From: an uncultured Methylocystaceae bacterium
GTDB lineage: Bacteria; Pseudomonadota; Alphaproteobacteria; Rhizobiales; Beijerinckiaceae
DNA length: 64,000 bases
Reading direction: 5' to 3'
Assembly: GCA_903870245.1 (NCBI GenBank)
Contig: CAIQCB010000052.1
Location: 124,001-188,000, forward strand
Part shown: one piece after another, positions 12,183 to 27,233 of the stretch
How the letters are laid out: the number at the start of each line of letters is the position of its first letter
Numbering within the stretch: position 1 is the stretch's first letter
Notes under the pieces: generated by a model
Seen by the model: only the letters and a program-made list of their open reading frames with translations
Told to the model about the DNA's origin: nothing
Databases searched by the model: none
Made by a program: the position numbers and the translations under genes

Positions 12183-13307
12183 TTGGACGGATTTGTCGAA
12201 ACATCTGACGTCGATCCCGGCTGTTTGTCGCCGGACACAGGCTCCGTCATTGCCGCCGAGCGGCGACGCGGTCGGGGCGTTTTGAGCAACGCCAGCGGGC
12301 GCTTTGAAGCCGAACGCCGTGAACCCATCGACGACGGCTGGGACGCGCTCGCCACGCTTGAGGCGCTGAGAACAAATGTCCATCCCGAGAAGCCGCGCAG
12401 CATCATCACCCGCAATGACTCGCCGGATATCTCCTTTGATCGTTCGATCAATCCCTATCGCGGCTGCGAACATGGTTGCGTTTATTGTTTTGCGCGTCCC
12501 AGCCACGCCTATGTTGGTCTGTCCCCTGGATTGGATTTCGAGACCGAGATTTTCGTCAAGGAGGGCGCCGCGCAACTTCTTGAGCGCGAGCTTTCGGCGC
12601 CAAATTACACGCCGCGCACAATCGCCATTGGCGCCAACACCGACCCCTATCAACCGGTTGAACGACGCTATCGTGTCATGCGCCAGATACTCGAGGCCCT
12701 TGCGCGGGCGCGCCATCCTGTCGCCATCGTCACCAAGTCGGCGCTGGTGTTGCGCGATCTCGATATTCTCGCGCCGATGGCGCGCGACGGCCTCGTCAAG
12801 GTTGCCATCTCGGTGACCACACTCGATCCCAAACTTGCGAGGATAATGGAGCCGCGCGCGGCGACGCCGGCCCGGCGTCTTGAGACCATTGAAAAGCTGT
12901 CGGCGGCCGGCGTTCCCACGGCTGTAATGACAGCGCCGATCATCCCGGCGATCAATGACGACGAAATCGAGACAATTATGACCCGCGCGCGCGGGGCCGG
13001 CGCGCGCGAGGCCGGCTATATTTTGCTGCGCCTGCCCCATGAATTGCGGGAGTTGTTTGAAGAATGGTTAACGGCGCATTTTCCAGACCGGAGGGCGCGC
13101 GCACTCTCGTTAATCCAGTCGACACGCGACGGTAAACTTTACGATTCCGCCTGGGGCAAACGCATGACCGGCGTCGGTCCCTACGCCTGGATGATCGGGC
13201 GGCGATTTGAAGTCGTCAGTAAGCGTCTCGGCTTTGAAAAGACGACCCTGCGACACGATCTCTTCGAGCCTCCCCGGCGAACCCCCAGACAGCTTGACCT
13301 TTTCTAG
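12183..13307 (+). CDS. PA0069-type radical SAM protein (SplB-like)
   Basis: 374 residues from TTG 12183, the only plausible start: the frame is closed by TGA at 12093-12095, no ATG or GTG follows it, and GGGGAG precedes the TTG by 9 bases. The radical SAM cluster is CEHGCVYC (CX3CX2C). Residues after it (ARPSHAYVGLSPG...FETEIFVK) match the PA0069/Rv2578c group, related to spore photoproduct lyase but without proven substrate. C-terminal ILLRLPHEL and the ending are family-like. The LexA-box promoter upstream suggests induction by DNA damage, consistent with a nucleic acid repair or modification role, which is inference. rnhB follows 34 bases later. Confidence 0.88.
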   Translation: MDGFVETSDVDPGCLSPDTGSVIAAERRRGRGVLSNASGRFEAERREPIDDGWDALATLEALRTNVHPEKPRSIITRNDSPDISFDRSINPYRGCEHGCVYCFARPSHAYVGLSPGLDFETEIFVKEGAAQLLERELSAPNYTPRTIAIGANTDPYQPVERRYRVMRQILEALARARHPVAIVTKSALVLRDLDILAPMARDGLVKVAISVTTLDPKLARIMEPRAATPARRLETIEKLSAAGVPTAVMTAPIIPAINDDEIETIMTRARGAGAREAGYILLRLPHELRELFEEWLTAHFPDRRARALSLIQSTRDGKLYDSAWGKRMTGVGPYAWMIGRRFEVVSKRLGFEKTTLRHDLFEPPRRTPRQLDLF

Positions 13308-15417: not shown

Positions 15418-16290
15418 TCAGGCCAGGAAGCCGCCGTAAAAACCAACCAGCAGGACTACGCCGATAAAGGCGCGATAAATCACGAATGGCCAGGCCGAAA
15501 ATCGCTCCAGGACCCGCAATAACCCCCAGATCGCGGCGAATGCGGAAATCGAGGCGATAAGTAAACCGAGCGACAGCACCGACCAGCCATGCGCGTCGAG
15601 ATGGGCCTTGTGTAATTCCCAGAGCTCCTTGAGACCGGCGAGAGCGATCGCCGGCAAGCCAAGGAGAAAGGAAAAGCGGGCCGCTTCCTCGCGTTTCAAA
15701 TCGAGGAACAGCGCGGCGGTCAACGTCGAGCCCGAGCGAGACACGCCGGGAATCAGCGCGCCAACCTGCGCAAAACCGACAATCATCGCATCCTTGAGCG
15801 ACACATGATCGAGCGAGCGCGAGTGATTGCAGTAAAATTCGGCGATCGCGAGCAGCGCCGCCATCACGATGCAGGAGACGCCGATCACCGGCAGCGTGCG
15901 CAACGGCGATCCGCAGGCGTTGAGGGTATGAGACAATAAGAGCCCGGCCAGACCGATCGGCACGGTGGCCAGCGCAATCCACACGGCGAAGCGGAAATTC
16001 CAGTCGCTGAAGTCTCGGGTCCGAACCGCATGGATCGAACCGAAGACGATATTTCGAATATCGCTCCAGAAATAACTCACGACGGCGGCGAGCGCGGCAA
16101 GCTGCATAGCGGCGGAGAACGCCGATCCCGGATCCTTCCAACCCAGCAACGCCGGCACAATCCGCATATGCGCCGTTGACGAAATCGGCAGTAGCTCGGT
16201 GATGCCCTGCACCACGCCCAGCACAGCGACTTTCATATAGCCAAGATCGACGAAACCCGTATCGAGACCGTTGGTGCAACCTGTCGCCAT
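15418..16290 (-). CDS. uppP: Undecaprenyl-diphosphatase UppP (BacA family)
   Basis: 290 residues from ATG 16290, with GGAG 6 bases upstream. It is a polytopic inner-membrane enzyme. The two family signatures are present: VVQGITELLPISSTAHMRI near the N-terminus and PGVSRSGSTLTAALFL in the middle. It dephosphorylates undecaprenyl diphosphate to recycle the lipid carrier for peptidoglycan and polysaccharide synthesis. It lies downstream of the OFA transporter on the same strand, separated by 105 bases. Confidence 0.95.
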   Translation of the reverse strand: MATGCTNGLDTGFVDLGYMKVAVLGVVQGITELLPISSTAHMRIVPALLGWKDPGSAFSAAMQLAALAAVVSYFWSDIRNIVFGSIHAVRTRDFSDWNFRFAVWIALATVPIGLAGLLLSHTLNACGSPLRTLPVIGVSCIVMAALLAIAEFYCNHSRSLDHVSLKDAMIVGFAQVGALIPGVSRSGSTLTAALFLDLKREEAARFSFLLGLPAIALAGLKELWELHKAHLDAHGWSVLSLGLLIASISAFAAIWGLLRVLERFSAWPFVIYRAFIGVVLLVGFYGGFLA

Positions 16291-16395
16291 GTCTACTCCC
16301 GGGCGTTTAGGATATTGCCAGGCTTTCGCCTGCGAAGCTGCTAGGGCTTATTATCTGCGATTATGGTTAAAGGAGAGCAAAGGCGCAGCGGGCGC

Positions 16396-18105
16396 TTACT
16401 GGAAAAGCTTCAGGGCCTTGAGCAAAGTGATCGACACCCCCCACGCCAAGGGCAGGCCGACGGCCGACCAGGAGAGCAGGAGTAGAAACAAAGAGCCGCG
16501 GGAAGAGGCCTGAACGGGAGGCGAACGACCTGAATCCGCAACCGCAATGGGATCTTCCTCAATGAAATCCTCGAAATCCGCGTGGATTCCATCCTGATCG
16601 TCGGCTAGCTGCGATGCAGATATTTTCTTGTCCGCAGCCACCTCTTCGTCAGTCATGTAATATTTTTCCGCCACCGGACGCACGAGCAGATTGCAGGCGA
16701 GACCCGCCAGCAAGAGGCCGGAAAGCACGTACATTGTCTGATTGTAGGCCGCCTCTCGCGGCACGCCGGAAGCAAGTTGATATTCACGAATGTAATTGAC
16801 CAGAACCGGACCCAAAACACCCGCCGTCGACCATGCGGTCAAAAGCCGTCCGTGAATCGCGCCAACCATATGCGTGCCGAAAATATCCGCCAGATAGGCT
16901 GGGATCGTCGAGAAACCGCCGCCATACATTGTAATGATAACGGCAAGGATCAACACGAACAGAAACACGAGGCTGCGGGATGTCGCGAAGGGAACGGCGG
17001 CGTAAAGCAGAAAACCGGCGACGAAAAAGATCGCATAGGTCATCTTGCGGCCAAATCTGTCGGAGGCCGACGCCCAACCTAACCGGCCGCCAATATTGCA
17101 GAGGCTGAGCAGTCCGGTAAAACCTGCGCCTATCGCCGCGATCTGTTGTTTCTGACCCGGGTCCAGCGAGTCAAATCCCGCATCGACGCCGATCAAGCGA
17201 CCGCCAAACACCTCCTGCAACATCGGCGAGGCCATGCCGAGCACGCCGATGCCTGCAGACACATTCAGACATAATACGCCCCACAACAACCAGAACTGAG
17301 GCGTTTTCCATGCGGTATTGAGATGAACATGCCGAGTTGTCACCATGAGTCCGGCATTTTGCAGCGGCGGCGTCCAGCCGGGAGGGGTCCAGCCTTCCGG
17401 CGGCACTCGATAACCAAGCGCGCCCGCGACCATGAAAAGGAAATAGATGCCCGCCAGCGCGACGAAGGTTTGCCAAACGCCGGGAGCCTGCGTCGTCGCG
17501 AAATAACTCATCAGCCTGTCGGCGAGCGGCGCGCCGATCATCGCCCCGCCGCCAAAGCCCATGATCGCCAGACCCGTCGCGAGGCCACGACGGTCCGGAA
17601 ACCATTTAATCAGGGTCGATACAGGCGATATATAGCCTAATCCAAGACCGACGCCGCCAATCGCGCCGGAACCCAGCCACAGCATCCAGAGCTGATGCAG
17701 GTGAATGCCGAGCGCAGAAATCAGCAAGCCGCCGCACCAGCAAAACGCCGCCGCCAGCCCGGCCTTGCGCGGTCCCGCCGTTTCCAGCCAGTGGCCAAAT
17801 ATCGCCGCCGAGGAGCCCAGCAGCACGAAAAACAACGTGAATGTCCAGCCGAGTTGGCTTATTCTCCAGTCGCACTCCGTCGCAACGAGCGATGCGAAAA
17901 AACCCGTTGTTTCCGGACAGAGCCTGGGCTGCGCGCCGCCGACAAGCCGAGACAAGGGCAACCAGAAAACACTGAAGCCATAAGCCATGCCGATGCACAA
18001 ATGGATGGCGAGGGCCGCGGGGGGAACAAGCCAGCGATTAAAGGACGGTCCGGCGACCGTGTTCTCCCGGCTCAGATACGCAATCCCGGCGTCAACGGCT
18101 TTCAT
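16396..18105 (-). CDS. OFA (oxalate/formate antiporter) family MFS transporter
   Basis: 569 residues from ATG 18105, with GGAGGGAG a few bases upstream; a TTG five codons earlier is less likely. A typical 12-helix MFS protein: FNRWLVPPAALAIHLCIGMAYGFSVFW at the start, a long loop before helix 2 (LCPETTGFF...CDWRISQLGWTFT), the MFS loop FPDRRGLATGLAIMGFGGGA, and a C-terminal cytosolic tail rich in Asp/Glu. The family includes OxlT, and large OFA proteins with such tails are common in proteobacteria. Oxalate, formate or another carboxylate are candidate substrates. It is the last gene of the apparent ecm-BLUF-transporter operon. Confidence 0.88.
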   Translation of the reverse strand: MKAVDAGIAYLSRENTVAGPSFNRWLVPPAALAIHLCIGMAYGFSVFWLPLSRLVGGAQPRLCPETTGFFASLVATECDWRISQLGWTFTLFFVLLGSSAAIFGHWLETAGPRKAGLAAAFCWCGGLLISALGIHLHQLWMLWLGSGAIGGVGLGLGYISPVSTLIKWFPDRRGLATGLAIMGFGGGAMIGAPLADRLMSYFATTQAPGVWQTFVALAGIYFLFMVAGALGYRVPPEGWTPPGWTPPLQNAGLMVTTRHVHLNTAWKTPQFWLLWGVLCLNVSAGIGVLGMASPMLQEVFGGRLIGVDAGFDSLDPGQKQQIAAIGAGFTGLLSLCNIGGRLGWASASDRFGRKMTYAIFFVAGFLLYAAVPFATSRSLVFLFVLILAVIITMYGGGFSTIPAYLADIFGTHMVGAIHGRLLTAWSTAGVLGPVLVNYIREYQLASGVPREAAYNQTMYVLSGLLLAGLACNLLVRPVAEKYYMTDEEVAADKKISASQLADDQDGIHADFEDFIEEDPIAVADSGRSPPVQASSRGSLFLLLLSWSAVGLPLAWGVSITLLKALKLFQ

Positions 18106-18144
18106 CCAGTCTCCCTCCAAAAAACAAATAAATCCAAGGCGACT

Positions 18145-18552
18145 CTAGTTTAGCGATAAAAACGCCCTGATCATGGATTTCACGTCCGCGCTCGACAATT
18201 CGACCAATGCGTCGGCGATTTCCTGATTAAGCCGCAGCAGACTGTGCTCACCGTGATCGGAGTCGATATCTTTGAGTTTCATGCCCCATTCCGGATAGGA
18301 GAGCGCCTCAACGTTTTCGGTTTTGATCAAAGTGACGCCGGCGTGTCGGGGATCCCTCGTGATCCGCTCATACAGTTCCTCCACCTTGCCGCGCGGACCC
18401 TCCAGCACCTGGAGAAAATTAAGTCCGTTGAACAGCAGGATGCCGGTGACGCCATTGGCAAGATTGCGAGCGACGGCGCATGAGAGAATATTCTCGAGTT
18501 CGGCGGCGCCGAGCCCCAGCCGCGCCGTGCTGAAATAGATGAGGCGGAGCAC
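18145..18552 (-). CDS. BLUF-domain blue-light sensor (short, stand-alone)
   Basis: 135 residues from a GTG start with AGGGAG upstream. All flavin-site residues of BLUF domains are present at the right spacing relative to AppA: Tyr6 (Y21), Asn30 (N45), Gln48 (Q63) and Trp89 (W104), in the contexts LIYFSTA, ARNLANGVTG, FLQVLEGP and YPEWGM. A helical C-terminal cap (about 95-135) follows and there is no output domain, so signalling must be by protein contact. It lies 29 bases after ecm and 39 bases before the OFA transporter, all on one strand. That points to light input on carbon metabolism or transport, which is inference. Confidence 0.95.
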   Translation of the reverse strand: MLRLIYFSTARLGLGAAELENILSCAVARNLANGVTGILLFNGLNFLQVLEGPRGKVEELYERITRDPRHAGVTLIKTENVEALSYPEWGMKLKDIDSDHGEHSLLRLNQEIADALVELSSADVKSMIRAFLSLN

Positions 18553-18581
18553 CGTCTCGCTCCCTTTATCCTGCGCGCGAC

Positions 18582-20555
18582 CTAAACGACGGCCTCCTCG
18601 ATAATGTGCGCAAGGTCGGTCATGATCTTGTTCAGGTCGTAGTTCTTGGGGGTGTAAACCGCCGCGACGCCGGACTCGATAAGCAGCTTCTCGTCGGCCG
18701 GCGGAATAATGCCGCCGACGACGAGCGGCGCGGACACGCCTTCGGCCTTCATCAGTCGCATCACTTCATGCGCGAGCGTCACATGCGACCCCGACAGGAT
18801 CGACAGACCGACACAATGCACGCCCTCTTTTTTCGCGGTCTCGACCAGTTCGGCCGGCGTCGAGCGAATGCCGGCGTAAATCACATCGAACCCCGCGTCG
18901 CGCGCCCGCACGGCAATCTGCTCCGCGCCGTTGGAGTGGCCATCGAGCCCCGGTTTCCCGACAAGGAATTTGGCGCGCTGACCAAGCTTCTGGGACACCC
19001 GCTCGACCTCGCTGCGAACGGCGTCGAGCTGGCCGCCGACCTGACGGGCCGTGGAGGAGACGCCGGTCGGCGCGCGGTATTCGCCAAACACGCCGCGCAG
19101 CACATGGCCCCATTCGCCGGTGGTGACGCCGGCGTTCGCGGCGGCGATGGACGGTTCGACCATGTTGCGGCCTTCCTTCGCCGCGCGCTCCAGTTCCGCA
19201 ATCGCCGCCTGCGCCGCTTTCTGATCGCGCTGTGCGCGCCACGCCTGGAGACGAGCGATCTGATCGGCCTCGACATGCTCGGGCACGACCATGATCTGGT
19301 TGTCGCCCGAGGTTAGCGGCGAGGGTTCGCCTTCCATGAATCTATTAACGCCAACGACGGTTTGCTCGCCCGCCTCGATGGCCTCGAGCCGTGCGGTGTT
19401 CGCCTCGACCAGTTTCGACTTCATGTAACCAGTCTCGACGGCGGCGGCGGCGCCGCCCATGTCGTCGATTTTTTTCAGTTCGGCGCGCGCCTCGTCCTTG
19501 AGGGCGGCGACCTTCTTCGCGATCACCGGCGAGCCGTCGAAGATATCGCCATATTCGAGAAGGTCCGTCTCATAGGCCATGACCTGCTGCATCCGCAGCG
19601 ACCATTGCTGATCGAAGGGACGCGGCAGGCCGAGCGCCTCGTTCCACGCCGGCAGTTGCACCGCGCGGGCGCGGGCGTTTTTGGACAACACCACCGCCAG
19701 CATTTCGATCAGGATGCGCGTGACGTTGTTTTCCGGCTGCTGTTCGGTAAGGCCCAGCGAATTGACCTGGACGCCGTAGCGGAAACGACGAAGCTTCTCG
19801 TCCCTGACGCCATAACGATCGCGCGTGATCTCCTCCCACAGTTCGGTGAAGGCGCGCATCTTGCAAAGTTCGGTGACGAAACGCATGCCCGCGTTGACGA
19901 AGAAGGAGATTCGGCCAACGACCTGCGCGAAATCAGCCTCCGGCATGCCAGAGGCCTTGACGCCGTCGAGGATTGCAACGGCTGTCGCCAGCGCAAAGGC
20001 CAATTCCTGCGAGGGCGTCGCGCCCGCCTCTTGCAAATGATAGGAGCAGACGTTCATCGGGTTGAATTTCGGGCATTCCTTCGTCGTGAAGAGAATGAGA
20101 TCCTGCGTCAGTCTCAGCGATTGTTTCGGCGGAAACACATAGGAGCCGCGCGAGAGATATTCCTTGATGATGTCGTTCTGGGTCGTGCCCTGCAATTTGA
20201 CGCGCGGGACCCCCTGCTCGCCGGCGGCGGCGATGTAAAGCGCCATCAACCACACGGCGGTGGCGTTGATGGTCATCGAGGTGTTCATCTCGCCAAGCGG
20301 TATGCTCTCGAACAGGGTGCGCATATCGCCCAGATGCGAGACCGGCACGCCAACCTTTCCGACCTCGCCGCGCGACAAAATATGGTCGCTGTCGTAGCCG
20401 GTCTGGGTCGGCAGATCGAAAGCAATGGAAAGACCTGTCTGGCCCTTGGCGAGATTGGTGCGATAGAGACGGTTCGAATCCGCCGCGGTCGAGTGACCGG
20501 CGTAGGTGCGAAACATCCAGGGCTTGTCGCGACGCGGAGCGGACATGTCGTTCAT
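18582..20555 (-). CDS. ecm: Ethylmalonyl-CoA mutase (MeaA type, B12-dependent)
   Basis: 657 residues from ATG 20555, with AGAGGAG just upstream. The long in-frame N-terminal extension is rejected because families of this type begin near RRDKPWMFRTYAGHS. It has the methylmalonyl-CoA mutase TIM barrel (FDLPTQTGYDSDH, NTSMTINATA, QNDIIKEYLSRG) and then a B12-binding domain with DGHSNG (DXHXXG) near residue 535. It is shorter than classical Mcm large subunits and, with ccr divergent and mcd nearby, is assigned as Ecm: ethylmalonyl-CoA to methylsuccinyl-CoA in the ethylmalonyl-CoA pathway. First gene of the apparent ecm-BLUF-OFA operon. Confidence 0.92.
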   Translation of the reverse strand: MNDMSAPRRDKPWMFRTYAGHSTAADSNRLYRTNLAKGQTGLSIAFDLPTQTGYDSDHILSRGEVGKVGVPVSHLGDMRTLFESIPLGEMNTSMTINATAVWLMALYIAAAGEQGVPRVKLQGTTQNDIIKEYLSRGSYVFPPKQSLRLTQDLILFTTKECPKFNPMNVCSYHLQEAGATPSQELAFALATAVAILDGVKASGMPEADFAQVVGRISFFVNAGMRFVTELCKMRAFTELWEEITRDRYGVRDEKLRRFRYGVQVNSLGLTEQQPENNVTRILIEMLAVVLSKNARARAVQLPAWNEALGLPRPFDQQWSLRMQQVMAYETDLLEYGDIFDGSPVIAKKVAALKDEARAELKKIDDMGGAAAAVETGYMKSKLVEANTARLEAIEAGEQTVVGVNRFMEGEPSPLTSGDNQIMVVPEHVEADQIARLQAWRAQRDQKAAQAAIAELERAAKEGRNMVEPSIAAANAGVTTGEWGHVLRGVFGEYRAPTGVSSTARQVGGQLDAVRSEVERVSQKLGQRAKFLVGKPGLDGHSNGAEQIAVRARDAGFDVIYAGIRSTPAELVETAKKEGVHCVGLSILSGSHVTLAHEVMRLMKAEGVSAPLVVGGIIPPADEKLLIESGVAAVYTPKNYDLNKIMTDLAHIIEEAVV

Positions 20556-20810
20556 GGATTTCTCCTCTATCGGCTGCGATAGCACATGACCCTGTTTTGA
20601 CAAGACGCCGCAACCCAAAAGCCCCGCCATCTCCATCCCCCGGAAGAGTTTTTCGCCGGCGCCGCCCCCGACGCGCGCCCGGCTCAGGATTGCCGGCCTT
20701 TATCGGAAAAATTGACTGATCCATAGATATTTTAGGGCTATCCGGGCCACAAACAGCGCTTTATAAAACGCGCCCGAATTGATGCGCCGCACTCTGACCG
20801 GAGCCTGATC

Positions 20811-22064
20811 TTGAGCGAGAAAAAAGACCTCTACGAACTGGGCGAACTCCCGCCGCTCGGCCATGTGCCCAAAAACATGTACGCCTGGGCGATCCGCAGG
20901 GAGCGGCATGGGCCGCCGGAGACGGCCATGCAATTGGAAGTATTGCCGACCTGGGAGCTCGACAGCCACGACGTGCTCGTTCTGGTTATGGCGGCAGGCG
21001 TCAACTACAATGGCGTTTGGGCCTCGCTTGGCGAGCCCATTTCGCCGTTCGACGGTCACAAGAACCCTTTCCACATCTGCGGATCGGACGCCTCGGGCAT
21101 CGTTTGGGCGGTGGGGTCCAAGGTCAAGCGCTGGAAAGTCGGCGACGAGGTCATCATCCACTGCAATCAGGACGATGGCGACGACGAGGAATGTAATGGC
21201 GGCGACCCCATGCATTCGACCTCCCAGCGCATCTGGGGCTATGAGACGCCGGACGGCTCATTTGCGCAGTTCTGCCGCGCGCAGGACCGACAATTGCTGG
21301 AGCGGCCGAAACACCTGACATGGGAAGAGTCGGCCTGCTACACGCTGACGCTCGCCACCACCTATCGCATGCTCTTCGGTCATGAGCCGCATGAGCTGAA
21401 GCCTGGCCATAATGTTTTGGTCTGGGGCGCTTCGGGCGGCCTTGGCGTTTTCGCCGTGCAGCTTTGCGCGGCCTCTGGAGCCAACGCCATCGGCGTCATC
21501 TCGGACGACTCGAAGCGCGATTACGTCATGTCGCTGGGCGCCAAAGGCGTGATCAACCGCAAGGATTACAAGTGCTGGGGTCAATTGCCAAAAGTCAATT
21601 CTCCTGAATTTCATGAATGGACCAAGGAAGCCCGCAAGTTCGGCAAGGCGATCTGGGACATCACCGGCAAGAAGGATGTCGACATCGTTTTCGAACATCC
21701 TGGCGAGTCGACCTTCCCGGTCTCCTGCATGGTCGCCAAGCGCGGCGGCATGGTCGTGTTCTGCGCCGGCACCACCGGCTTTAATCTGACCTTCGACGCG
21801 CGTTATGTCTGGATGCGTCAGAAACGCATTCAGGGCTCGCATTTCGCCCATCTGAAACAGGCCTCGGCGGCCAATCAATTCGTGATCGACCGGCGCGTCG
21901 ATCCCTGCATGTCGGAAGTCTTCGCCTGGGAAAAAATCCCGGAGGCCCACACGAAAATGTGGCGCAACGAGCACGCTCCCGGCAATATGGCCGTTCTGGT
22001 GAACGCTCCGAAGCCCGGCCTGCATACGGTTGAAGATGTGATTGAGGCCTACAAGGCGAAATAA
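20811..22064 (+). CDS. ccr: Crotonyl-CoA carboxylase/reductase
   Basis: 417 residues from TTG 20811, with GGAG eight bases upstream; no ATG fits before the conserved KDLYELGELPPLGHVP. It belongs to the medium-chain reductase fold: ICGSDASGIVWAVG, a nucleotide-binding WGASGGLGVFAVQ, and family-specific CNQDDGDDEECNGGDP and FEHPGESTFP. The enzyme reductively carboxylates crotonyl-CoA with NADPH and CO2 to ethylmalonyl-CoA, the committed step of the ethylmalonyl-CoA pathway. It is divergent from ecm across 255 bases and ends before a strong terminator. Confidence 0.97.
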   Translation: MSEKKDLYELGELPPLGHVPKNMYAWAIRRERHGPPETAMQLEVLPTWELDSHDVLVLVMAAGVNYNGVWASLGEPISPFDGHKNPFHICGSDASGIVWAVGSKVKRWKVGDEVIIHCNQDDGDDEECNGGDPMHSTSQRIWGYETPDGSFAQFCRAQDRQLLERPKHLTWEESACYTLTLATTYRMLFGHEPHELKPGHNVLVWGASGGLGVFAVQLCAASGANAIGVISDDSKRDYVMSLGAKGVINRKDYKCWGQLPKVNSPEFHEWTKEARKFGKAIWDITGKKDVDIVFEHPGESTFPVSCMVAKRGGMVVFCAGTTGFNLTFDARYVWMRQKRIQGSHFAHLKQASAANQFVIDRRVDPCMSEVFAWEKIPEAHTKMWRNEHAPGNMAVLVNAPKPGLHTVEDVIEAYKAK

Positions 22065-22121: not shown

Positions 22122-22586
22122 AATGGTCGCAGGATGTCGCTTGAGGCGTCGGGGTTGGTGACGGCGCCGGCGCCGCCCGTTTCCAGATCAGCGCTGAGGC
22201 TTGGCCAAGCGCCGGCCACTTGCGGACACGCACGGCCGACTATGCCAAGCAAGACGAGAGCGGCCACGCGCGGCCACAGCGCGGGTCATCCGCCTTTACT
22301 GCTGGCGTTGGCGGCCGTCCGTGACTGGGTCCGTTGCAAGCCGCGATGATCCGGCGCAGACGGGAAGGTTGCGCCGCGGCAAAAATGGCGGCATGAAGAC
22401 ATCAGATTTCGGGAGTTTTGCGGACGCCCTCTGATGATCCAGACCATCTCCTCATTCTTCCGGACGTTTATCGGGGGCGGCTCAGCGGCGGAAACGCCAG
22501 CGACTGTGTCCGTCGACCTCTCCCCAGTGTCTGCGCCGGGTGATTTCTGCCCGGGAAACACCGGGGAAAAAATCGAGGAAAAAACA
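22122..22586. other. Gap between ccr terminator and mcd, 465 bases
   Basis: No gene is convincing. The frame of mcd stays open upstream to ATG 22434, but the 51 extra codons do not resemble the family and the strong ribosome site is at 22576-22580. A 13-codon reading frame starting at ATG 22393 ends in TGATG, overlapping ATG 22434, and could be a leader peptide; there is no further evidence for it. The mcd promoter must lie here. Confidence 0.55.
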
Positions 22587-24260
22587 ATGAACGCAGTCGT
22601 CGCGTTAAAAATCGAACCAGAGAGCTGGCTCAACGAAGCCAAATCCGCGCTCGCCGCCGTCGAGGGCCTGTATAACGACTCTCTCGCCAGCGTTCGCGCC
22701 CGCGTGTCTCGGGACGGCAAGATCGCCAACGATCTCTTCGAGGCCGATCAACACGCCGCTCACGGGATCGCCTGGTTCGCAACCTATGTTCAGGGACTTC
22801 GTGAGTTGATCGCCTACGCCGAGCGCCTCCAGTCGGAGGGGGCCTATGGCGAGACCGAGGAATTGCTGAACCGCATCGGCTTCGCCGAATTATTGGCGCA
22901 GATCTTTGGCGGCGTTCCAATGAGCCAGGGCGAGACCGTCCGCCTCACCGATTTCGGGCTCTCGGCGCAACAGATCGCCGCCCGTCGCCCCGCCGCCATC
23001 GACAGTCTGATCCTGTCCGGCAACACGCCGGCGAACCGCGCCCGCCTCGCCGAATTGATCGATCACCATGCCGCCGCAGAGACCATCGGCGCATCGGGCC
23101 TCGACGAAACCCTTGAGGCGATCCGCAGCGAAATGCGGAAATTCGCCACCGCCAATGTGACGCCCCACGCGCAGGATTGGCACGCCCAAAACGCCTATAT
23201 CCCGCTTGATGTCGTGGCCGGGCTCGCCGAACTCGGCGTCTTTGGCCTGACGATCCCAGAAGAATACGGCGGCTCCGGCATGGGCAAGATCGCGATGTGC
23301 GTGGTCTCCGAGGAGCTTTCGCGCGCCTATATCGGCGTTGGCTCGCTTGGCACCCGCTCGGAGATCGCCGGCGAACTGATTCTCGTCGGCGGCACCGAGG
23401 AGCAAAAAAAGAAATTCCTTCCCGGCATCGCCAGCGGCGAAATCCTGCCGACCGCAGTGTTCACCGAACCCAATAACGGGTCCGATCTCGCCGGGTTGCG
23501 CACCCGCGCGACCCTCGAAGGCGATGTTTACAAGGTCGTGGGCAACAAGACCTGGATCACGCACCCGGTCCGCGCGGACATCATGACCCTGCTGGTGCGC
23601 ACCAATCCCAATGAAAAGGGCTATAAAGGCCTCTCCATGCTGATCGCCGAGAAGCCTCGCGGCACGGATGAAAATCCGTTCCCGGCGCCGGGCATGACCG
23701 GCGGCGAGATCGAGGTGCTGGGTTATCGCGGCATGAAAGAGTTCGAGATCGGCTTCGATAATTTTGTTGTGCCGGCCGCCAATCTTCTTGGCGGCGAGGA
23801 AGGCAAAGGCTTCAAGCAACTCATGGAGACCTTCGAGTCAGCGCGCATCCAGACCGCCGCGCGCGCGCTCGGCGTTGCCCAGTCGGCGCTCGACCTTGGA
23901 CTGAAATACGCCAAGGAACGCATTCAGTTTGGCAAGCCGCTGTTCTCTTTCCCGCGTGTTTTCAACAAAATCGTGTCAATGGCCGTCGAAATCCACATTG
24001 CTCGTCAGATCACCTATTTCGCGGCGCGCGAAAAGGACGAGGGCAAGCGTTGCGATCTCGAAGCTGGCATGTCCAAGCTGCTCGGCGCCCGTGTCGCCTG
24101 GGCGGCGGCGGACAACGCCCTGCAAATTCACGGCGGCAACGGCTTCGCTCTGGAGTATCCCGTGTCTCGGGTGCTCTGCGACGCTCGTATTCTCAATATC
24201 TTCGAGGGCGCGGCGGAGATTCAGGCGCAGGTCATCGCCAGACGCCTGCTCGAAGGCTGA
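22587..24260 (+). CDS. mcd: (2S)-methylsuccinyl-CoA dehydrogenase
   Basis: 557 residues from ATG 22587 with GAGGA eight bases upstream. An N-terminal helical extension of about 150 residues precedes an acyl-CoA dehydrogenase core, an arrangement characteristic of Mcd rather than ordinary short-chain dehydrogenases. Core motifs: GLTIPEEYGGSGMG, TEPNNGSDLAGLRTRA, WITHPVRADIMTLLVRT, the helix LLGGEEGKGFKQLM, and the C-terminal HGGNGFALEYPVSRVLCD. It oxidises methylsuccinyl-CoA to mesaconyl-CoA with FAD. Mcd follows Ecm in the ethylmalonyl-CoA pathway, and the gene follows ccr here with its own terminator. Confidence 0.95.
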   Translation: MNAVVALKIEPESWLNEAKSALAAVEGLYNDSLASVRARVSRDGKIANDLFEADQHAAHGIAWFATYVQGLRELIAYAERLQSEGAYGETEELLNRIGFAELLAQIFGGVPMSQGETVRLTDFGLSAQQIAARRPAAIDSLILSGNTPANRARLAELIDHHAAAETIGASGLDETLEAIRSEMRKFATANVTPHAQDWHAQNAYIPLDVVAGLAELGVFGLTIPEEYGGSGMGKIAMCVVSEELSRAYIGVGSLGTRSEIAGELILVGGTEEQKKKFLPGIASGEILPTAVFTEPNNGSDLAGLRTRATLEGDVYKVVGNKTWITHPVRADIMTLLVRTNPNEKGYKGLSMLIAEKPRGTDENPFPAPGMTGGEIEVLGYRGMKEFEIGFDNFVVPAANLLGGEEGKGFKQLMETFESARIQTAARALGVAQSALDLGLKYAKERIQFGKPLFSFPRVFNKIVSMAVEIHIARQITYFAAREKDEGKRCDLEAGMSKLLGARVAWAAADNALQIHGGNGFALEYPVSRVLCDARILNIFEGAAEIQAQVIARRLLEG

Positions 24261-25474: not shown

Positions 25475-26731
25475 GTGACCCAATCCATGATCTTCAAACA
25501 ATCCCGCCACATGCGATTTCTTTTACTTGCGGTTTCTCTTCTCGCGGCGGCGGGGTGCGGAGGGCGTCCCCATGGGGTTCTGTTGCCGGTTCACGCACAG
25601 CCGCCGGGGACGGACCTTGTCAACATGCTGGTTGTCACGACCCGCAGCGAGGACCCGGAGCCCGGCGTCATGTTTTCGGGCGAACGCGGCGATCACATTT
25701 CCTACGCGGATATCGCCGTCTCAATTCCGAAAGAACGCATCGTTGGGGAAGTTCAGTGGCCCGCAGAGCAAACCCCCGATCCCTCGCGCGAATTCACAAC
25801 GGTCAACGCCCGCGTTCTGTCCAAGGGCCAGGCGATAGCGGCGTTCGACAGTCGCATTCACAAAACCCCCAAACGGCAGGTTTTGCTCTTTGTGCATGGA
25901 TTTAACACCAAGTTCGAGGAAGCTGTTTACCGCTTCGCGCAAATCGCTCATGACTCCGACGCCTCGATCACGCCCGTCCTGTTCACCTGGCCATCGCGCG
26001 GCAACCTTCTGCAATATGGATATGATCACGAGAGCGCGAATTACTCCCGCGACGCGCTGGAAGGCGTACTGCAATTCCTCGCCCGCGACTCCAATGTTGG
26101 GGAAATCTCGATTCTCGCCCATTCAATGGGCAATTGGGTGACGCTGGAGGCCCTGCGCCAGATGGCGATCCGTAACAAGGGACTGCCGGCAAAGATCAAG
26201 AACATCATGCTGGCTGCGCCGGATGTGGATTTTGACGTGTTCCGCCGGCAGATTCTGACGATGGATGCAAAACCCTCATTGTTCACCGTTTTCATTTCGC
26301 GCGACGATGAGGCGCTCGCGGTGTCGCGGCGGGTGTGGGGCAACAAACCGCGTCTCGGGGCGGTCGATAAAGACGCCGAACCCTATCGCGACCAGCTCGA
26401 TCAAGAGCGCATTACCGTCGTTGATCTGACCGATGTCGACTCTCCCGATCGACTGGGCCATGGCAAATTCGCCCAGTCGCCGGAGGTCGTGCGCTCGATC
26501 GGGGCGCGTCTGGCTTCGGGACAGACGCTCAGCGATGGCCACGCCGGCGTCGGTCAGAAATTTGGTTATGTCGCGGCCGGCGCCGTCTCGACGGTCGGGG
26601 CGGCGGCGGGCGTCGCCGTCTCCGCGCCCTTCGCGATTGTCGATCCGCGCACGCGCGAAAGTCTTGGCGAACACATCCAGTCGGTTGGGGAGCCCTTGCA
26701 GGCCGCCGGCGATCGATTGAATGCGCGATAA
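25475..26731 (+). CDS. Alpha/beta hydrolase of the DUF900 family, probable lipoprotein
   Basis: 418 residues from GTG 25475; ATG 25487 and ATG 25511 are also possible. The segment from 25511 reads as a signal with lipobox-like AAAGC, so the mature protein may be lipid-anchored at Cys. The DUF900 core contains LLFVHGFNTKFEEAVYRFAQI, the nucleophile elbow LAHSMGNW (Ser) and APDVDFDVFRRQI. A C-terminal glycine/alanine-rich helix region (VAAGAVSTVGAAAGVAVSAP) is unusual and could contact the membrane. Substrate unknown. The last 11 bases overlap the TspO gene. Confidence 0.85.
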   Translation: MTQSMIFKQSRHMRFLLLAVSLLAAAGCGGRPHGVLLPVHAQPPGTDLVNMLVVTTRSEDPEPGVMFSGERGDHISYADIAVSIPKERIVGEVQWPAEQTPDPSREFTTVNARVLSKGQAIAAFDSRIHKTPKRQVLLFVHGFNTKFEEAVYRFAQIAHDSDASITPVLFTWPSRGNLLQYGYDHESANYSRDALEGVLQFLARDSNVGEISILAHSMGNWVTLEALRQMAIRNKGLPAKIKNIMLAAPDVDFDVFRRQILTMDAKPSLFTVFISRDDEALAVSRRVWGNKPRLGAVDKDAEPYRDQLDQERITVVDLTDVDSPDRLGHGKFAQSPEVVRSIGARLASGQTLSDGHAGVGQKFGYVAAGAVSTVGAAAGVAVSAPFAIVDPRTRESLGEHIQSVGEPLQAAGDRLNAR

Positions 26732-27233
26732 TTTGCGCGCGGCGGGAAAAACCCGGGCGCGGCCGCCAGCGGTCGACGCGCTGATCGCCGCCGCGCTGGT
26801 GATCCTGGCGGGCGGAATTGGCAATCTCGCCACAATTCCCAATATCCCGACCTGGTACGCCAGCCTGACCAGACCGCCGCTCACGCCGCCGAACTGGGTC
26901 TTCGGCCCTGTCTGGACGCTGCTTTATTTTCTCATGGCTGTCGCATTTTATCGCGTGCTGAGGGCAGAGTCTGACTCACCGGGGCGTACACGGGCGCTGG
27001 GCGTTTTCTTTTTGCAACTGGCGTTGAACGCTGCCTGGTCCTTCGCCTTTTTCGGGGCGCACAGTCCCGCGCTGGGTCTCCTGACGATCACCCCCTTGCT
27101 GACGCTGATCGTCGCAACCATCGTCCTGTTCAGACCGCTCGATACCATCGCCGCATGGTGCCTTACGCCCTATGCGGCATGGGTTTGCTTCGCGACCTAT
27201 CTCAACGCCGGCTTCTGGTGGCTCAACCGCTAG
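26721..27233 (+). CDS. tspO: TspO/MBR family protein
   Basis: 170 residues with five membrane helices. Family signatures: WYASLTRPPLTPPNWVFGPVWTLLYFLMAVA in the first third, LALNAAWSFAFFG in the middle and the end AAWVCFATYLNAGFWWLN. TspO proteins bind tetrapyrroles and cholesterol-like ligands and regulate porphyrin-linked gene expression in photosynthetic alphaproteobacteria. The start is inside the end of the DUF900 gene (11-base overlap), which suggests translational coupling. It abuts the convergent hydrolase gene. Confidence 0.92.
   Translation: MRDNLRAAGKTRARPPAVDALIAAALVILAGGIGNLATIPNIPTWYASLTRPPLTPPNWVFGPVWTLLYFLMAVAFYRVLRAESDSPGRTRALGVFFLQLALNAAWSFAFFGAHSPALGLLTITPLLTLIVATIVLFRPLDTIAAWCLTPYAAWVCFATYLNAGFWWLNR

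Follow-up and report, generated by a model that had tools for sequence, protein, structure and literature searches.

A predicted short BLUF photoreceptor gene lies directly behind the ethylmalonyl-CoA mutase gene in some Methylocystis genomes

Results

The window analyzed here, a stretch of 64,000 nucleotides, belongs to a Methylocystis genome, and its genes around ecm are listed in Table 1. Gene calls and direct reading confirmed that ecm, a BLUF gene, and a transporter gene follow one another on one strand, with gaps of the lengths proposed in an earlier, sequence-only reading. A consensus scan of the coding (-) strand found nothing terminator-like in either gap, in line with that reading; the single terminator-like match overlapping the ecm-BLUF gap (18546-18563) sits on the opposite strand. 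Between 16250 and 20850, neither strand showed anything promoter-like in the consensus scan, and a tRNA was the sole match in an Rfam search. The case for co-transcription consists of the length of the gaps and a single consensus scan with a negative outcome. The label "ethylmalonyl-CoA pathway operon" is too wide, as ccr and the mcd-like gene lie on the + strand. The latter probably encodes methylsuccinyl-CoA dehydrogenase, a name taken from its context. Two mutases are encoded in the host genome, the ecm product and one at 38% identity; the former combines the mutase fold with a B12 domain, is distinct from the genome's Mcm, and is encoded beside ccr, which together predict an ethylmalonyl-CoA mutase.

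Table 1. Genes and gaps of the ecm-BLUF locus in the window
Feature	Positions	Strand	Description
uppP (undecaprenyl-diphosphatase)	15418-16290	-	PF02673 and TIGR00753
MFS transporter, OFA/monocarboxylate type	16396-18105	-	569 aa counted from ATG; MFS_1; downstream of BLUF
BLUF-transporter gap	18106-18144	-	39 nt, read directly from sequence
Stand-alone short BLUF	18145-18552	-	135 aa, GTG start; PF04940
ecm-BLUF gap	18553-18581	-	29 nt, read directly from sequence
ecm	18582-20555	-	657 aa; PF01642 (MM_CoA_mutase) and PF02310 (B12-binding); predicted AdoCbl-dependent ethylmalonyl-CoA mutase; directly upstream of BLUF
ccr (crotonyl-CoA carboxylase/reductase)	20811-22064	+	TIGR01751, 615.8 bits (cut-off, 378.55); divergent from ecm
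Acyl-CoA dehydrogenase (mcd-like)	22434-24260	+	Acyl-CoA_dh domains

The BLUF protein scores 94.5 bits against PF04940 (cut-off, 25). Its BLUF domain spans residues 1 to 92, and no further Pfam domain was found in the 135-residue chain, marking it as a stand-alone protein. All four flavin-site residues named earlier were recovered: Tyr6, Asn30, Gln48, and Trp89 align with Tyr8, Asn32, Gln50, and Trp91 of Tll0078, with which M91 also aligns. The four are invariant in 23 of 23 aligned BLUF sequences, a set biased by the picking of its rows on patterns in two conserved stretches. An alignment of seven revealed a conserved C terminus, AFL(S/T)LN. Profile matches in the PDB included Tll0078 (E value, 9.4e-22) and BlrB (1.4e-19). 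A first AlphaFold model from seven rows was poor (pLDDT, 58) and was replaced by a model from 23 rows (pLDDT, 75), in which C-terminal helices occupy about residues 102 to 119 and 122 to 133, confidence being below 50 for residues 94 to 105 and mostly 50 to 70 over the last 35. Its top Foldseek match was again Tll0078 (E value, 4.1e-11). Ratios of dN/dS were 0.08 to 0.23 in the 9 of 21 pairs for which dS could be estimated; the protein is under purifying selection. No relative was found on viral contigs. These properties are those of an ordinary short BLUF of the Tll0078/BlrB type, for which flavin binding and a blue-light response are predicted.

Among known systems, the cyanobacterial Tll0078 (TePixD) and Slr1694 (PixD) likewise consist of a single BLUF domain and C-terminal helices. 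Tll0078 has Tyr, Asn, Gln, Trp, and Met at the same positions and is the best match in both sequence and fold; in contrast to the PixD systems, which are 29 to 36% identical in structural alignments, the Methylocystis gene stands in an ecm context. No PixE-like response regulator is present among its neighbors (ecm, transporter, uppP, and ccr), so the locus does not have the PixD-PixE layout. BlrB of Rhodobacter sphaeroides, an alphaproteobacterial stand-alone short BLUF with a 137-residue chain, has a similar fold and is 31% identical in the structural match; to our knowledge, its function is not settled. Nor do we know of partners of short BLUF proteins in more than a few species. The fold search also found BlsA of Acinetobacter baumannii (6w72), a short BLUF with, unlike the protein studied here, a longer C terminus and a proposed alpha5 (accessible portion of PMC6695109).

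To place the locus in the genus, 39 Methylocystis genomes were searched, 37 of which carry ecm. The orthologues in the other 36 are 85 to 92% identical and are set apart from the ~38% paralogue. The synteny check proposed in the earlier reading was run, and a BLUF gene was found directly behind ecm in 7 of the 37, with a gap of 26 to 33 nt in all seven; the six other BLUF proteins are 58 to 81% identical to that of the window. None was seen behind ecm in the remaining 30 genomes, two of which are cut there by contig ends. The adjacency is more than chance and is kept in seven genomes, possibly of one lineage. The full triple is present in G000, G012, and G022; besides the 39 nt of the window, their BLUF-transporter gaps measure 34 and 28 nt. 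In the four without the transporter at this place, uppP directly follows BLUF. An ecm DNA tree placed the seven BLUF-bearing genomes weakly on one side of a branch (support, 73/52); base composition was odd in five of its rows, of which four are BLUF bearing. In a protein tree the seven were scattered. They may represent one lineage and a single retention.

In 19 genomes the transporter gene, in G034 a piece of it, lies downstream of ecm with no intact BLUF between. In G009, this gap holds a scar of the BLUF 3' end (nhmmer E value, 7.7e-5 over 954,513 nt), and in a shuffle test six further genomes gave weaker, collinear matches to the 3' end, each weak singly. That test used one BLUF gene (from G022) as query and at most 400 nt before the transporter, the G034 gap being too short for inclusion. 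Six of the 18 tested gaps reached a p value of 0.010 or less, G008 reached 0.040, and nine others exceeded 0.1; the gaps are akin to one another (those of G025 and G062 are nearly identical), and the tests are therefore not independent. G015 (0.033) and G020 (0.063) were not counted as scars, as they matched other parts of BLUF. By nhmmer alone, G009 was the sole significant case, unrelated stretches scoring as high as the weaker scars, and a search of the translated gaps with the BLUF profile (hmmsearch) returned nothing significant (best E value, 1, in G009). The evidence for a decayed BLUF 3' end is strong in G009, and remains are perhaps present in six more genomes. Given these remnants, the pair appears to go back to an ancestor within the genus, with loss in other genomes and decay in one relative or more.

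Sixteen other Methylocystis genomes carry a related second BLUF, of the M. rosea type, at a locus apart from ecm. It resembles the ecm-linked proteins in length (134 aa) and groups with them apart from the other sampled BLUF proteins (support, 96/87; first 100 residues), whereas it is only 38 to 41% identical to that of the window and occupies another locus with other neighbors, namely, a conserved small protein downstream and a nearby gene that we take to be similar to nicotinate phosphoribosyltransferase. Linkage to ecm is evidently not needed for BLUF persistence, since this clade exists elsewhere, and is dispensable given also the 30 genomes without a BLUF behind ecm. Such observations would suit a passenger, a BLUF that senses light for an unrelated process and for which the ecm promoter is merely a convenient site of expression; the order- and class-wide survey, which revealed no general BLUF-Ecm linkage, and the lack of any Ecm column that tracks BLUF point the same way. 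However, the adjacency has outlasted BLUF divergence to 58% identity, with gaps held at 26 to 33 nt, and we regard a passenger as somewhat unlikely.

Outside the genus, 95 genomes contain both BLUF and Ecm, and in one genus only do both lie within 10 kb, which is about the chance expectation at that scale. There, the gene behind mcd in an EMC cluster encodes a different BLUF; in L118 and L119, the cluster additionally contains a cobalamin adenosyltransferase. This placement in a second genus is one event. AdoCbl is photolabile, and a blue-light sensor made together with Ecm might gate or protect the loading of this cofactor, a role that would fit both the position of BLUF behind the gene of an AdoCbl enzyme and the arrangement in the second genus. 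CarH and B12 photochemistry are the topics of published abstracts. Against this role, none of the Ecm alignment columns separated the 7 proteins of BLUF-bearing genomes from the 30 others, in which Ecm is kept with no BLUF seen behind it, and the second genus is a single case within chance; we consider it quite improbable. The earlier suggestion that Ecm could be the BLUF partner found no support in the same columns, even if the two proteins could still bind.

The transporter proved a poorer candidate than first proposed. Its description as an "oxalate/formate-type" protein is a loose one for an MFS member of the OFA/monocarboxylate type: it scored 124.7 and 106.3 bits against oxalate/formate models TIGR00890 and TIGR04259 (cut-offs, 374.85 and 335), whereas it fell just under the cut-off of the L-lactate model SfMCT (NF049980; 301.5 against 320 bits). 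At 36.1 bits, it also exceeds the cut-off of 24 for a small-subunit tail domain. The oxalate link to the ethylmalonyl-CoA pathway, which depended on that label, loses its footing in the curated models. Light gating of organic acid uptake, with the transporter as BLUF partner, would accord with the 39-nt gap and with the triple in three genomes. However, the transporter does not adjoin BLUF in four of the seven ecm-BLUF genomes; no homologue at an E value of 1e-20 was found in G007 (98% complete), G014 (73%), or G019 (77%), all of which keep the pair, and in G027 one lies at another place in the genome. Together with the 19 genomes that have the transporter and no intact BLUF, this makes such a partnership highly improbable. 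The transporter is a dispensable, not a constant, member of the locus.

The window's genome also has pufL and pufM, on the same contig about 96 kb from ecm, and PpsR (408.4 bits; cut-off, 275.4), likewise on that contig, and the ecm-linked gene is its sole BLUF match. The protein might thus counter PpsR in the manner of AppA and control the photosynthesis genes of this methanotroph. The C-terminal region of AppA binds haem and PpsR, whereas the BLUF protein ends at residue 135 and has no such part. In addition, pufLM were found in only two of the seven ecm-BLUF genomes; G007 keeps BLUF without them, as do four others that are 66 to 81% complete, and 2 of 10 pufLM genomes (G020 and G031) gave no BLUF match. 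An AppA-like function is very unlikely.

Discussion

The explanation that we favor, and to which we give about an even chance, is that an ancestor within Methylocystis set a functional short BLUF photoreceptor directly behind ecm, that the two are co-expressed, and that the photoreceptor acts on a regulator encoded elsewhere. BLUF would probably be transcribed with ecm, which would make its amount follow the need to assimilate acetyl-CoA. It would bind flavin, blue light would cause the usual Tyr-Gln-flavin rearrangement, and the C-terminal helices would relay the signal to the product of a gene at another locus, a transcriptional or response regulator being the likeliest candidate; the adjoining transporter would not be needed. 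A regulator as target is modeled on BlsA with Fur and PixD with PixE. According to the accessible portions of the sources, BlsA steers metabolism by binding Fur (PMC5955987), and PixD-PixE, AppA-PpsR, and BluF-BluR are BLUF systems that act on regulators (PMC5899715). We favor this explanation because of the adjacency in 7 of 37 genomes, the uniform short gaps, the dN/dS ratios, the G009 scar, the invariant residues, and the fold, and because the transporter is dispensable and nothing marks Ecm as partner. Counted against it are the 16 BLUF genes away from ecm, the possible single retention, and the chance-level linkage outside the genus.

The BLUF type is already known; no description of its setting behind ecm was found in the literature searched, which covers a minority of subscription papers, and the accessible portions of PMC10674011 and PMC4770636 do not describe the linkage. 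Control of C2 assimilation by light is an inference, as it was in the earlier reading. It is improbable that the ethylmalonyl-CoA pathway has a blue-light input of its own, in which BLUF adjusts Ecm or the supply of photolabile AdoCbl, and acetyl-CoA assimilation follows light in a methanotroph and, separately, in the second genus with BLUF behind mcd. Ready-made natural controls exist among these genomes, since some keep the pair, at least one has a decayed sensor, and others lack the pair. Position ties BLUF to one central carbon assimilation enzyme in methanotrophs, some with photosynthesis genes, and should acetyl-CoA assimilation indeed respond to light, this would be relevant to the amount of methane carbon that these bacteria retain by day versus by night.

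Organization of the ecm-BLUF-transporter genes in the window

Gene coordinates read in the window (genome G000) confirmed that ecm, the BLUF gene, and the transporter gene share one strand, with gaps of 29 nt (ecm-BLUF) and 39 nt (BLUF-transporter). Consensus scans, which provide weak evidence, found no terminator-like site on the coding strand in either gap, and positions 16250-20850 contained no sigma-70-like promoter in either orientation. The sequence-only reading had assigned the three genes to an ethylmalonyl-CoA (EMC) pathway operon; ccr (crotonyl-CoA carboxylase/reductase) and an mcd-like gene (probably methylsuccinyl-CoA dehydrogenase) lie on the opposite strand upstream of ecm, indicating that the whole pathway is not one operon here. 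A TspO gene is located close to the EMC genes (26721-27233, plus strand), as also observed in genome G007 and two genomes of a genus with an mcd-linked BLUF (loci L114, L118, and L119).

Coordinates of the ecm-BLUF-transporter set in the window
Feature	Position	Strand	Remark
ecm	18582-20555	-	gene of the ecm-BLUF-transporter set
BLUF gene	18145-18552	-	adjoins ecm
MFS transporter	16396-18105	-	adjoins BLUF gene

The window protein scored 94.5 bits against the Pfam BLUF domain (cut-off, 25), and a profile of the protein itself matched Tll0078 (E value, 9.4e-22) and BlrB (1.4e-19) in the PDB. In the profile alignment, Y6, N30, Q48, W89, and M91 correspond to Tll0078 positions 8, 32, 50, 91, and 93, bearing out the earlier assignment of Tyr6, Asn30, Gln48, and Trp89 to the flavin site. 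A predicted model built on 23 sequences adopted a BLUF fold with two helices at the C terminus (mean pLDDT, 75; lower beyond residue 90). Its closest structure was again Tll0078, which shares the five aligned residues, and BlrB and BlsA were also recovered. Of the 21 sequence pairs compared, 9 gave a usable dS, with dN/dS values of 0.08-0.23 (dS was saturated in the other 12). The BLUF protein thus looks ordinary and intact.

Conservation and probable loss of ecm-BLUF in Methylocystis

The genome that the window belongs to is a Methylocystis. Among 39 genomes of the genus, the window's own included, 37 including G000 contain an Ecm ortholog (85-92% identity to the window Ecm); G033 has only a 38% paralog and G011 gave no match. 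The region downstream of ecm was inspected in all 37. A BLUF gene lies directly behind ecm in seven (BLUF+ genomes), always at a gap of 26-33 nt, and the six other proteins are 58-81% identical to that of the window. It is followed by the transporter in G000, G012, and G022 and by uppP (undecaprenyl-diphosphatase) in G007, G014, G019, and G027. The ecm-BLUF pair is present in 7/37 genomes, and the full triple in three of those seven. The transporter is found downstream of ecm in 22/37 genomes, 19 of which lack an intact BLUF (G034 has a transporter piece only). In G013 and G028, the contig stops within 130 nt of ecm, and a BLUF search of both genomes gave the other BLUF type only. In 20 genomes from other genera of the family, the examined stretch by ecm gave no BLUF or same-strand transporter match; uppP directly follows ecm in four genomes representing two genera (L135, L137, L138, and L140). 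In an ecm DNA tree, the BLUF+ genomes fall weakly on one side of a branch (73/52), so they may represent a single lineage that retained the gene. The gene layout is real and under selection, and it looks old. The ecm-transporter junction also holds partial ecm copies in L085 (G004) and L086 (G015) and a partial transporter copy in L095 (G023), and seems prone to rearrangement.

In some BLUF-less genomes, the stretch right before the transporter resembles a BLUF 3' end on the same strand. When the G022 BLUF gene was compared with 18 gaps, using 300 dinucleotide shuffles per gap, six reached a P value of ≤0.010 (G023, G009, and G025, 0.003; G002, G062, and G029, 0.010), and G008 gave 0.040; all seven matches fall in BLUF nucleotides 323-398. 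An nhmmer search of 125 partly overlapping loci (954,513 nt, other BLUF genes among them) recovered the G009 gap at an E value of 7.7e-5, spanning nucleotides 288-399, and this scar is solid. The remaining gap matches had E values of 0.1 to about 6 (G008 was unreported); some unrelated stretches score equally, but the position is as expected, and these scars are likely real, judged by position rather than proven. In the ecm DNA tree, G023 belongs to one main branch of core Methylocystis and G002, G008, G009, G025, and G062 to the other. If the scars are real, the simplest history is that the common ancestor of both branches had ecm-BLUF, which was then lost repeatedly; if the G023 scar is a chance match, that ancestor would be the ancestor of the second branch only. 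A transporter promoter inside the former BLUF 3' end would account for the retention of that remnant.

A BLUF search of 37 genus genomes found the ecm-linked type in 7, a related type elsewhere (the second BLUF, of the M. rosea type) in 16, a third type in 1 (G009), and no match in 13. None of the 37 carries two BLUFs. Were the genomes independent, which they are not, zero overlap between the 7 ecm-linked genomes and the 17 that have any other BLUF would arise with a probability of 0.0075. In a tree of the first 100 residues, with 8 of the 16 second-type proteins sampled, the two Methylocystis types form a group separate from the other sampled BLUFs (96/87; the ecm-linked set alone, only 82/43), suggesting from sequence that the second BLUF may be a relocated ortholog. 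A conserved small protein of about 82-100 aa is encoded next to it, on its downstream side, in 15 of the 16 genomes (the contig stops there in G032) and is a candidate partner or output; the arrangement was examined at L042:6001-6714 and 22 other loci.

BLUF and Ecm beyond the genus

At least 109/297 genomes of the order and 56/385 of the class have a BLUF. Ecm was sought in 157 BLUF genomes outside the genus; this set omits the window's own genome, its congeners, repeats, and three genomes that fell short of the cut-off. Among the matches listed, Ecm was present in 95 (64/80, 15/27, and 16/50; E values up to 1e-150). Read by eye, BLUF and ecm share a contig and lie no more than 10 kb apart in only 3 of these 95 among the matches listed (G057, G105, and G141), all from one genus; in G172, a fourth genome of that genus, BLUF is behind mcd and ecm is on a different contig. 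The mcd-BLUF distance is 108-256 nt in all four, and the mcd-linked BLUF shows 36-40% identity across 58-83 residues. At both L118 and L119, ccr is followed in turn by a gene that we take to be transporter-like, mcd, BLUF, SDR, tspO, and cobalamin adenosyltransferase. We estimate that, with one to two BLUFs in a 4-Mb genome and a target of 20 kb, chance would produce roughly one such event among some 95 genomes at a 10-kb distance; the mcd-BLUF genus alone therefore does not establish a link. Many of the surveyed genomes are fragmented. The four mcd-linked proteins (L118-L121) contain no Trp and thus lack the Trp of the flavin site.

In Hyphomonas and its kin (L039:6001-7640, from Hyphomonas jannaschiana, and L038, L046, L048, L050, and L052), a radical SAM gene comes immediately after a related BLUF, and ccrM lies several kb further along. 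The radical SAM homolog in the window (12183-13307) lies in a block past uppP, about 5 kb from BLUF, reflecting either a shared old neighborhood or coincidence.

Candidate partners of the BLUF protein

The sequence-only reading had named Ecm, the transporter, or a regulator elsewhere as the possible partner. The transporter is not obligate, since the BLUF+ genomes G007 (98% complete), G014 (73%), and G019 (77%) keep ecm-BLUF with no transporter homolog at an E value of 1e-20; G027 has a homolog at another locus. Ecm gave no sign of partnership, as no alignment column separates the 7 BLUF+ from the 30 BLUF-less proteins, although the two proteins may still bind.

A regulator encoded elsewhere is the candidate that remains and is favored, in the manner of BlsA with Fur (PMC5955987) and PixD with PixE (PMC5899715). 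Methylocystis photosynthesis gene clusters are already known (PMC7285482, PMC7660913). We found pufLM in 10 of 39 genus genomes, including G000 and G022, and G000 also encodes PpsR, BchG, PufC, and BchZ. pufLM was not found in the BLUF+ genomes G007, G012, G014, G019, and G027, only the first being near complete, which argues that the partner is not PpsR alone. In G000, pufL, pufM, pufC, bchG, bchZ, and ppsR lie at C52:30000-49900 (L150), on the same contig as ecm and about 96 kb from it.

The window sensor belongs to a known kind of BLUF, of which this gene is a new representative. That light controls C2 assimilation or acid uptake is an idea open to testing rather than a finding, and the genomes with and without ecm-BLUF form a natural control set for it.
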